In this document: positions 53,001 to 56,000 of the stretch, in pieces
Layout of the letters: each line of letters starts with the position of its first letter
How positions within the stretch are numbered: position 1 is the stretch's first letter
Position numbers and translations under genes: made by a program
Notes under the pieces: model-generated
The model's input: the letters and a program-made list of their open reading frames with translations, nothing else
Databases searched by the model: none
What the model was told of the DNA's origin: nothing
DNA from: Corallium rubrum
Taxonomy: Eukaryota; Cnidaria; Anthozoa; Scleralcyonacea; Coralliidae
Direction of reading: 5' to 3'
Length of the DNA: 64,000 nucleotides
NCBI GenBank assembly: GCA_964035015.1
Contig: OZ035998.1
Coordinates: forward strand, 37,534,559-37,598,558

Positions 53001-56000
53001 AGAGAAACATTTTTATGTATAATACAGATAAAACACGAAGAAGAGATTCCAAACCCCGATTCCGATATCCAAACCCCGAAAAGAGCAGAGTGGTAACACT
53101 CCCTCATCTAAATCAATGTTGTAACACACCCGTCCCTTTATTTATTCTAGTCAGGGTTATCCTTTCAGCAATTAAAAGAAATGCTGTTATCAATAGGAGC
53201 ACTGCATGACAAACTATGAATGCAAGTTACAATGATGTTCTAACTACACATAAAAGATTAAAAACTATATTCAAAATTATAGCTATGGAATAACAGAAGT
53301 AAATAAAAAGATATATAAAAGTTAATATGAACTTATAGAATTATGTTAAACTACACAACCGTTATAATAAAAAGATTCTTGGCGGCTTCCGCAGAAATGA
53401 GCTTGCTGTACGCCAAAAATATAGCAGGACATACGATGTCCTACGGGAGGTCCTTCGTGTTTTCTTCACAAACGACGAACGTTCGCCGCTTCGCTGACCG
53501 CCATCCTTAATATATTACAGAGGTCTTGTTTTTACACGGATATTTATAGGGAGACTGGGGTTAGTGTGAATATTTTTACGCCCTAAAAATTTATCATTTA
53601 TTAACGCCCTTATCCAATTTCGTGGTTCACACAGAATACGCCTTAATAACCTGGTTGGTTGTTTGTTTTAACGAAGAAACTTCGAAAAAAAACTATAGCT
53701 GTCCCAAGCTCAGCTGGAAAGCGCGGTATAGATGCAGGCGCTTCCTGAGACGGGTAATCTGTAGTTTTCTTGGCTTTCTTGTCAATTTAAATATATACTA
53801 TTTTATAAAAAAAAAATTAAAAACGTGTCGTGTGCGCGACTATATCGAGATTTATCAGCAATGAAGAAGCTAGTAAAAAAACCGGTTATCACCTCGTGTT
53901 TTACATACAACTCTCGTGTTGTTATAAATCGGTAATCGCACGCGACGAGTTTTTATTTTTAAAAATACAGCAAATGAATATAATAGAAAACATCGGTACA
54001 AATATATTATAAATCGTACGTCAACATCGCCAACTTAGATACCAAACTTACGACTCCGTACTCTTTTTGAAACATTTTTAACACCAGCCACCCGCTATCC
54101 AACTCAATGTAGTAACACCCCGCTATTGAAATCAATATTGTCGTAAAGTTACCTGTTCAGCTGTTGGGATTTGCCCAGTTATCAACAACCAAAACATGGC
54201 TTCCGGGAGCGGTTGCGCTCCACCTTCAGCAATTGGAAGAAGCTAAAAAACGTTTTTAAATTAAAACATACAATATAATATAACTGACAAAGCTCTGAGC
54301 TTCAAAGAAAAATGCACGCAAAAGACAAGTGCAACTTCATTTGCAAACTTTAAAAATTGCTTTTCTGGTAATTTCAAACCACCAGCGTACAGTGGGCCAC
54401 TGTTGAAGAAGTTATTGTTAGAGATTACTGACTTAATGTAGACCTTCGCAAATTGGAAATTGCACTTTCTTTTTGTTTTTTACCATATTATATATATATA
54501 TATATATATATATATATATATATATATATATATATATATATATATATATATATATATATATATAGTTCAATCTACAGACATGTGTTTCGCTGTACTACAG
54601 CTCATCAGTGTAGCTTGGAACAATCTGAATGAATTTCATCAATTACTTATACACATGCGATCGTCGGTGACAACCGCATGTGGGACGGCATCGGTGAAAT
54701 ACATTCAGATAGCGTGAAGTGCGCATGGGCCCAGAGTGCTCAAACTTCCACAAGGGTAGTGAGCGTTGCATTATCGCTAATAGGTACCCACGGCAACTTC
54801 ACAGAGTGCTCAACGACACCGAAGTGAAGGAGCGTACATAGTTCAATCTACAGACATGTGTTTCGCTGTACTACAGCTCATCAGTGTAGCTTGGAACAAT
54901 CTGAATGAATTTCATCAATTACTTATACACATGCGATCGTCGGTGACAACCGCATGTGGGACGGCATCGGTGAAATACATTCAGATAGCGTGAAGTGCGC
55001 ATGGGCCCAGAGTGCTCAAACTTCCACAAGGGTAGTGAGCGTTGCATTATCGCTAATAGGTACCCACGGCAACTTCACAGAGTGCTCAACGACACCGAAG
55101 TGAAGGAGCGTACATAGTTCAATCTACAGACATGTGTTTCGCTGTACTACAGCTCATCAGTGTAGCTTGGAACAATCTGAATGAATTTCATCAATTACTT
55201 ATACACATGCGATCGTCGGTGACAACCGCATGTGGGACGGCATCGGTGAAATACATTCAGATAGCGTGAAGTGCGCATATATATATATATATATATATAT
55301 ATATATATATATATATATATATATATATATAATTTATTAACTTTTAATGCTGAGTCGCTACGCAGAGTTTCACGCTTACGCGATCTTCAGGCAACTAACA
55401 GATTACAAACTATATGAACTACTATGACTATACCTACTAGTAGTTTTCCTTCATAATTATAAAATGTTTCAATAATTACTACTTAATGACCGAGCGTGAG
55501 GTCTGTAATATAATATAATATATAGTAGACCTTGTAATCTGTTAGTTGCCTGAAGATCGCGTAAGCGTGAAACTCTGAGTAGCGACTCAGCATTAAAAGT
55601 TAATAAATTATACTTCGCTCTGCCTATTAATGGTATTGAGCGCTCTTATACCTTACGCCAATCTAGTGATCTTTATGTTACACACTATTTTTGGTATATA
55701 TATATATATATATATATATATATATATATATATATATATATATATAGTGTTAAACAGTGTTAGAACAACTCAGCCCAGATTTTTTACAATATGAAAGGCT
55801 AAAACAAAATTATATTTTTATCAGCAACATCTCGTGTACTTTGTACATCAGCATAATACATATTGTTATCAGTATCCCAGTAGTTTTTAGCGTATTGTTG
55901 TAGTACGAACTACTATGACTATACCTACTAGTAGTTTTCCTTCATAATTATAAAATGTTTCAATAATTACTACTTAATGACCGAGCGTGAGGTCTGTTCT

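Follow-up and report, generated by a model that had tools for sequence, protein, structure and literature searches.

What kind of element is the tandem array that stands between two (TA)n tracts in this stretch of Corallium rubrum DNA, and how was it copied there? In the window, by which we mean the whole 64,000-nucleotide stretch that was analysed, a preliminary description had pointed to a retrozyme with three identical copies of a hammerhead ribozyme. We consider it likely, jointly with the cycle of copying round an RNA circle proposed below, that the array is a single recent insertion of a metazoan-type non-LTR retrozyme. The junctions of the related copies in this genome supply a start, a target and a set of recurrent stops, and thus make the question of copying directly testable.

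The array and its hammerhead ribozyme

The features of the array are listed below. Phases count nucleotides along the RNA sense, starting at the predicted cut, so that phase 1 is the first nucleotide after GUC.

54485..54564, no strand: (TA)n target tract on the RNA-sense 3′ side
54562..55278, minus strand (RNA sense): retrozyme insertion, 2.6 identical 276-nt units
54562..54566, minus strand: RNA-sense 3′ end of the insertion, presumed start of reverse transcription, phases 11-15
54565..54621, minus strand: type I hammerhead copy 1 (outer ends of stem I), predicted cut 54577/54576
54577..54852, minus strand: single monomer between two predicted hammerhead cuts, the RNA predicted to circularise
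54841..54897, minus strand: type I hammerhead copy 2, predicted cut 54853/54852
55117..55173, minus strand: type I hammerhead copy 3, predicted cut 55129/55128
55277..55278, minus strand: 5′ end of the insertion in the RNA sense, at phase 127, where stops recur
55277..55331, no strand: (TA)n target tract on the RNA-sense 5′ side

The 276-bp period is exact, as had been described, with no mismatch over the 441 comparable positions of 54562-55278. Three copies had been counted; three hammerheads are indeed present, but the array amounts to only 2.6 units. The (TA)n boundaries are likewise found, on both flanks (54485-54564 and 55277-55331), where a target-site duplication would be indiscernible, and the 5′ end of the insertion meets the TA run via shared bases. 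The GC content of the unit, 47.1%, is below the 50% given for metazoan retrozymes in the text of PMC7229834 and above the 45% of its figure legend. No ORF of at least 130 aa in the window's ORF list overlaps the array; one stop-to-stop frame of at least 75 aa touches it, and its start falls in the TA run.

The three minus-strand motifs have their CTGATGA at plus-strand positions 55160, 54884 and 54608, and the base 5′ of each predicted cut at 55129, 54853 and 54577. Each combines the core strand CUGAUGA, GAAA and GUC with a stem II of 5 bp (loop AGU) and a stem I of 5 bp, an internal loop (CAAG/AUU) and 4 further bp. The minus-strand CTGATGA, 5-bp stem II, GAAA, GTC triplet and stem I internal loop reported earlier are all there, and the circular junction put forward at 54577/54576 agrees with the predicted cut of copy 1. 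Stem III, previously given as 3 bp, has only 2 bp and the tetraloop ACAU, because a third A-U pair would leave a 2-nt loop.

A mechanical descriptor of the type I hammerhead returned exactly these three motifs from the window, and 60 Markov-randomised windows yielded no motif. In the preliminary description, the lack of a hammerhead match above threshold was to count against the ribozyme, and no Rfam hammerhead family reaches its gathering score for the array: the best match below threshold is Hammerhead_HH9 (24.4 bits, E 0.0037, gathering 52), and Hammerhead_3 also scores (23.0 bits, E 0.0035, gathering 48.5). Taken literally this outcome speaks against the reading; we judge that the descriptor and the genome-wide family outweigh it. 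A type III reading, to which the weak Hammerhead_3 match could point, was rejected: by eye, stem I fails to form in that register.

The family, its ends and its targets

The ribozyme pattern, with at most one mismatch, occurs 277 + 287 = 564 times in the 474-Mb assembly of 312 contigs, while a reversed-pattern control gave none; viral contigs held no exact match. The DNA search with the array listed at least 52 matches (best 40 of 749 candidates scored), and the copies are dispersed across many contigs, in TA repeats. The unit is thus not confined to this locus (564 motifs against 0 in the control), the outcome that a genome-wide search had been suggested to check. The number of motifs, the type I hammerhead, the tandem 276-bp units and the scattered copies bear out the retrozyme reading and support assigning the element to the metazoan non-LTR kind.

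As described in PMC7229834, metazoan non-LTR retrozymes have type I hammerheads, non-coding tandem units of ~170-400 nt, a GC content below 50% and many dispersed copies; the type I hammerhead, the 276-bp tandem non-coding units and the dispersed copies found here are alike. Metazoan retrozymes are elements that yield circular RNAs; the C. rubrum family is described here from its genomic copies. The family also shows a common start of reverse transcription, (TA)n targets, copies shorter than a unit and recurrent stops, which we did not find described in the accessible text of PMC7229834; nor did we find, in the open-licence PMC literature as far as accessible, a published account of a common reverse transcriptase start or a TA-repeat target for retrozymes. 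The element belongs to an already known kind, and the anatomy of its start, target and stops is the new part. Plant LTR retrozymes share with it hammerhead-bounded non-coding RNA circles as proposed intermediates, but they are described as having type III hammerheads, in contrast to the type I of the window, along with LTRs, a primer-binding site, a polypurine tract and 4-bp target duplications (PMC4918200, PMC7761336), none of which was noted in the present copies.

For the mapping of junctions we used two sets of loci. Set A consists of 39 loci from the DNA search and the window (40 loci, 45 pieces), and set B of 43 loci (46 pieces), the listed chromosome-1 places of the ribozyme pattern up to 62.4 Mb outside set A. 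Six chromosome-1 places were already in set A (L013, L026, L028, L035, L040 and L041), so the lengths in set B lean short. Seven of the 89 loci L009-L097 were left out as overlapping (L049, L050, L052, L067, L069, L070 and L076), as were L001-L008, which cover the window and the places of L009-L013, and alignments of fewer than 45 columns. Because L080, L083 and L088 have both flanks in common, they were also counted as a single insertion; other loci with common-repeat flanks were kept separate, and many loci sit in shared repeats, so independence is not proven for each insertion. Four loci (L057, L082, L084 and L089) are 73-79% identical to the unit, have a ribozyme of the same kind and are probably older or sister subfamilies; L057 and L084 likewise end at phase 18 next to (TA)n.

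The majority of set A units have a self-complementary octamer as their stem III strand, and such a strand would make a dimeric ribozyme more likely; in the window copy the loop differs. The amphibian satellite or retrozyme repeats, as PMC7229834 describes them, are similar in their type I hammerhead, very short stem III and likely dimeric action, with units of 330-350 bp and another host.

A common RNA-sense 3′ end, just past the cut site of the ribozyme, was found in 80 of the 91 pieces (83 loci). It lies at phases 12-18 in 43/45 pieces of set A and 35/46 of set B, where L053 and L059 (CT repeat) are also anchored at the common point; after the collapse of L080/L083/L088, 35/44 set B pieces are anchored. 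The exceptions are, in set A (2/45), a 59-nt fragment of L009 and the long piece of the contig-end locus L021 and, in set B (9/46), L060, L061, L065, L071, L078, L082, L089 and two weak pieces of L094. In the hammerhead, base pairing joins phases 9-12 to 232-235, which places the start at the foot of stem I. The 5′ ends are variable: the pieces measure 49 to 2757 nt, that is 0.18 to 10 units, and most set B copies are shorter than one unit.

TA alternation flanks at least one side of 42/45 pieces in set A and 36/46 in set B, compared with a background of 0.75% of the 20-mers of the window. It could be asked whether the tracts are secondary, grown from TA seeds at the junctions after insertion into short AT-rich sites. 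Several copies do lie in AT-rich non-repeat DNA (for example L080, L090 and L092), as this would predict; TA stands on both sides in 30/45 pieces of set A and 15/46 of set B, despite the differing 5′ ends of the elements, and we hold such an origin of the tracts to be rather improbable. Copies in CT, CTAT or AGATAT repeats (L059, L019, L039, L011 and L095) have an unchanged start, so the start seems to be determined by the RNA, the target adding a few matching bases.

The 5′ ends recur at phases 79, 82, 120, 127, 142 and 197, across differing numbers of turns. Stops at phase 82 occur at 0.76, 1.77 and 2.76 units, at phase 120 at 0.65, 1.66 and 2.63 units, and at phase 127, where the window copy itself ends, at 0.61, 1.61 and 2.61 units. 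Indeed, 25/44 long 5′ ends fall within 1 nt of a short one, where 23.9% would be expected (p 3e-6, overstated because an alignment that ends next to a TA run tends to drift to an AT/TA dinucleotide). Phase 82 alone holds 8/43 mapped 5′ junctions, while simulated junctions subject to this drift led to an expectation of at most 0.48 for any phase, and the four 1.77-unit inserts that end there have no flank in common. Microhomology of at least 2 nt is found at 21/43 5′ junctions against 16.9% simulated (p 1.3e-6); the mean over the 43 junctions is not above the simulation (0.56 against 0.68), because 10/43 carry extra bases.

Proposed copying round an RNA circle

We propose the following cycle. 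A genomic copy would be transcribed on the strand that is the minus strand in the window, and the type I hammerhead would cut the multimer at GUC into 276-nt RNAs, which a ligase would close, as published for other species. Reverse transcriptase (RT) would start making cDNA from a single position inside the circle (phases 11-15, by the foot of stem I), a common start that the junctions display, with a nicked TA-rich repeat presumably serving as primer. It would then travel 0.18 to 10 turns and halt at preferred sites, visible as the recurrent 5′ ends, after which the cDNA would be joined to the other end of the target, often via at least 2 nt of TA microhomology. The units of one locus would be alike at birth and diverge later by private mutations, a pattern that the loci exhibit. 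The enzyme would most likely be a Penelope-like RT with a GIY-YIG endonuclease, acting on the retrozyme RNA. We regard this cycle, with its ribozyme-made circle, internal start, several turns, TA target and Penelope-like enzyme, as probable. If the copying of a circle is right, these loci are a genomic record of an RT running round it. For plants, a circular template had been foreseen to give cDNAs of differing lengths (PMC4918200).

The template must span the cut junction, because a linear product of phases 1-276 copied from phase 15 would give only 15 nt. Alternatively, the template might be an uncleaved linear multimer with a fixed 3′ end, SINE-like and perhaps UA-tailed from the flanking repeat, with no circle involved. 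Such a multimer predicts the same 276-nt periodicity of stops, so within-locus variants are needed to discriminate; source loci ending in (TA)n could pass on a fixed 3′ end, and for a lizard Penelope-like element unprocessed RNA is reported as the main substrate in vitro (PMC11167929). The variants point the other way. Comparing 40 pairs of units, one pair from each locus, we counted 80 shared non-consensus sites; 500 permutations gave a mean of 17.9 and never more than 28. Founder variants are common within loci, where chained copying of a multimer would blur them. Most set B copies, being shorter than one unit, could not yield multimers, and the unchanged start in CT, CTAT and AGATAT repeats makes a UA tail unneeded. 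We therefore think a linear template unlikely, though not negligibly so, and favour the circle.

In all, 88 variants are common to all units of a locus (founder variants), 13 are partly shared and 238 are private; in columns with at least three units, the figures are 23, 12 and 94. The mean distance between units is 1.9% within loci and 3.9% between them. The nearest relative of a unit lies in its own locus for 60/104 units, a weak test given partial units and low divergence; for this reason the founder/private test was preferred. Six loci (the window, L010, L011, L030, L040 and L042) have no internal difference, which points to recent activity. The 12 partly shared variants would require parallel hits or conversion under a pure circle model.

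A satellite-like amplification of DNA, in which unequal crossing-over or gene conversion homogenised the array with the hammerhead as a passenger, could be called upon for the perfectly identical units of the window and for the 21 identical unit pairs of L010, the longest homogeneous locus. It accords poorly with sub-unit copies that have no internal repeat and yet the same 3′ end and stops as multi-unit copies, with the dispersal of copies over many contigs in TA repeats, and with the 94 private against 12 partly shared variants, and we consider it very unlikely. The preliminary description had offered recent amplification or active homogenisation for the identity of the units. Recent amplification stands, the window copy being young; homogenisation is not required, because founder variants are common within a locus and the others private. 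The identity of the units in the window would simply reflect the youth of the insertion. Going beyond that description, the population of junctions supports the copying of a circle from one point next to the ribozyme, mostly into TA repeats.

The position of the variants also bears on the ribozyme. Within the hammerhead lie 7/88 founder and 52/248 private variants (Fisher p 0.005) and, relative to column coverage, founder variants are below expectation (p 9e-5) and private ones are not (p 0.23); when distinct variants are counted once, the figures are 4/41 and 39/181 (p 0.12). This is moderate evidence that the units with a sound hammerhead are those that spread. In the circular fold, 12/28 paired founder variants keep the pair, compared with 38/140 private-only ones, and the mean ddG is 1.3 for founder and 1.5 for private-only variants. 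Transitions make up 90% of founder and 58% of private variants in set A units, an excess that possibly reflects tolerance of G-U pairs in paired RNA. A signature of RNA editing was considered for it and rejected, since A>G, G>A, C>T and T>C all contribute to the founder transitions.

The putative partner and other features of the window

PMC7229834 proposes reverse transcription of retrozyme circles and names Penelope-like elements as candidates; according to PMC7761336, no conserved retrozyme motif points to the partner enzyme. In this assembly, the GIY-YIG domain (PF01541) has at least 143 matches (best 150 of 1845 candidates scored); among the matches listed, at least 20 lie in ORFs of at least 500 aa, and some stand in tandem at 2710-bp spacing. 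Five GIY-YIG loci (L098-L102) were read 3′ of the domain, and 5/5 peptides pass the Pfam cut-off. In 4/5 (L098, L099, L101 and L102) the ORF is followed by CTGANGA...GAAA, L100 lacking the first C, and in the same four (TA)n follows the hammerhead-like stretch, 65 to 175 nt from CTGANGA. The five represent several distinct GIY-YIG families in one genome; L100 runs into a TGTTG-type repeat and not into (TA)n.

The L098 family has at least 37 non-self matches at E < 1e-100 (best 40 of 1895 candidates scored); of these 37 listed ends, 24 fall within the TA run or at most 17 nt beyond it, 10 at its first bases and 3 earlier. In the L102 family, the matches listed (best 40 of 75 candidates) have two kinds of 3′ end, ~42 nt apart, one near query position 196 and the other in the TA run that begins at 239. 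They resemble the optional 30-40-bp tail described for Penelope-like elements in PMC11167929. When folded, the 3′ ends of the GIY-YIG elements revealed no clear common stem I foot. Altogether, the partner is probably a putative Penelope-like RT with a GIY-YIG endonuclease.

A close parallel is Poseidon, a Penelope-like element of a lizard (Anolis), for which PMC11167929 describes internal initiation of reverse transcription and an AT-rich target; its optional tail corresponds to what lies between two internal start sites, which are used on AT-rich DNA. The retrozyme resembles it in a hammerhead near the RT start, the internal initiation that we deduce, an AT-rich target and tandem copies; unlike Poseidon, it has no ORF and its hammerhead has a stem III. 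The distance from cut to start also differs: ~12-15 nt in the retrozyme, while in the lizard element the cut is at +26 and the start at 111-118 of the ORF. In vitro, the lizard element went on inserting when its hammerhead was mutated (PMC11167929); priming there thus does not depend on cutting, which leaves room for recognition of the fold. As a tentative suggestion, to which we give somewhat less than even weight, the hammerhead fold from the cut site to the stem I foot might double as a start platform for a Penelope-like RT, and retrozymes might parasitise Penelope-like elements through this start-site ribozyme. If so, one RNA fold would link circularisation to transposition.

The retrozyme might instead be moved by a LINE-type enzyme, as LINE-like 15-bp target duplications flanking Nematostella repeats (PMC4918200) would suggest. 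In this genome, however, a hammerhead and the same type of target mark the ends of the GIY-YIG families, and PMC11167929 regards initiation at an internal site unrelated to the target as unique to Penelope-like elements; we regard a LINE-type mover as unlikely, to about the same degree as a linear template, and retain the Penelope-like enzyme.

Other features were noted in the window. Beside the retrozyme, 55355-55585 forms a long near-perfect hairpin (a weak MIR6217 precursor match, 64 bits, gathering 110), part of whose loop sequence recurs near 55907; it looks like a hairpin-type inverted-repeat element. The region 29155-37813 consists of nested inverted repeats (for example the arms 33232-33722 and 36461-36951, 491 nt, 97%), flanked on either outer side by 110-bp tandem repeats, and is perhaps a large transposon; a 238-aa frame within it (34765-35478) had no Pfam match at E 0.05. 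A tandem array with a unit of 124 bp (or 249 bp), with ~25 diverged copies and 84% matches, lies at 29757-32865, and degenerate tandem repeats with units of ~20, 57 and 192 bp occupy 16401-17759. An ORF of 146 aa at 45286-45726 has matches to EF-hands, is rich in arginine and cysteine along one stretch and, by eye, seems to carry a signal peptide. Finally, exons are scattered through the window's ORF list, and a citrate synthase exon and a chaperonin-60 exon pass the Pfam cut-offs.
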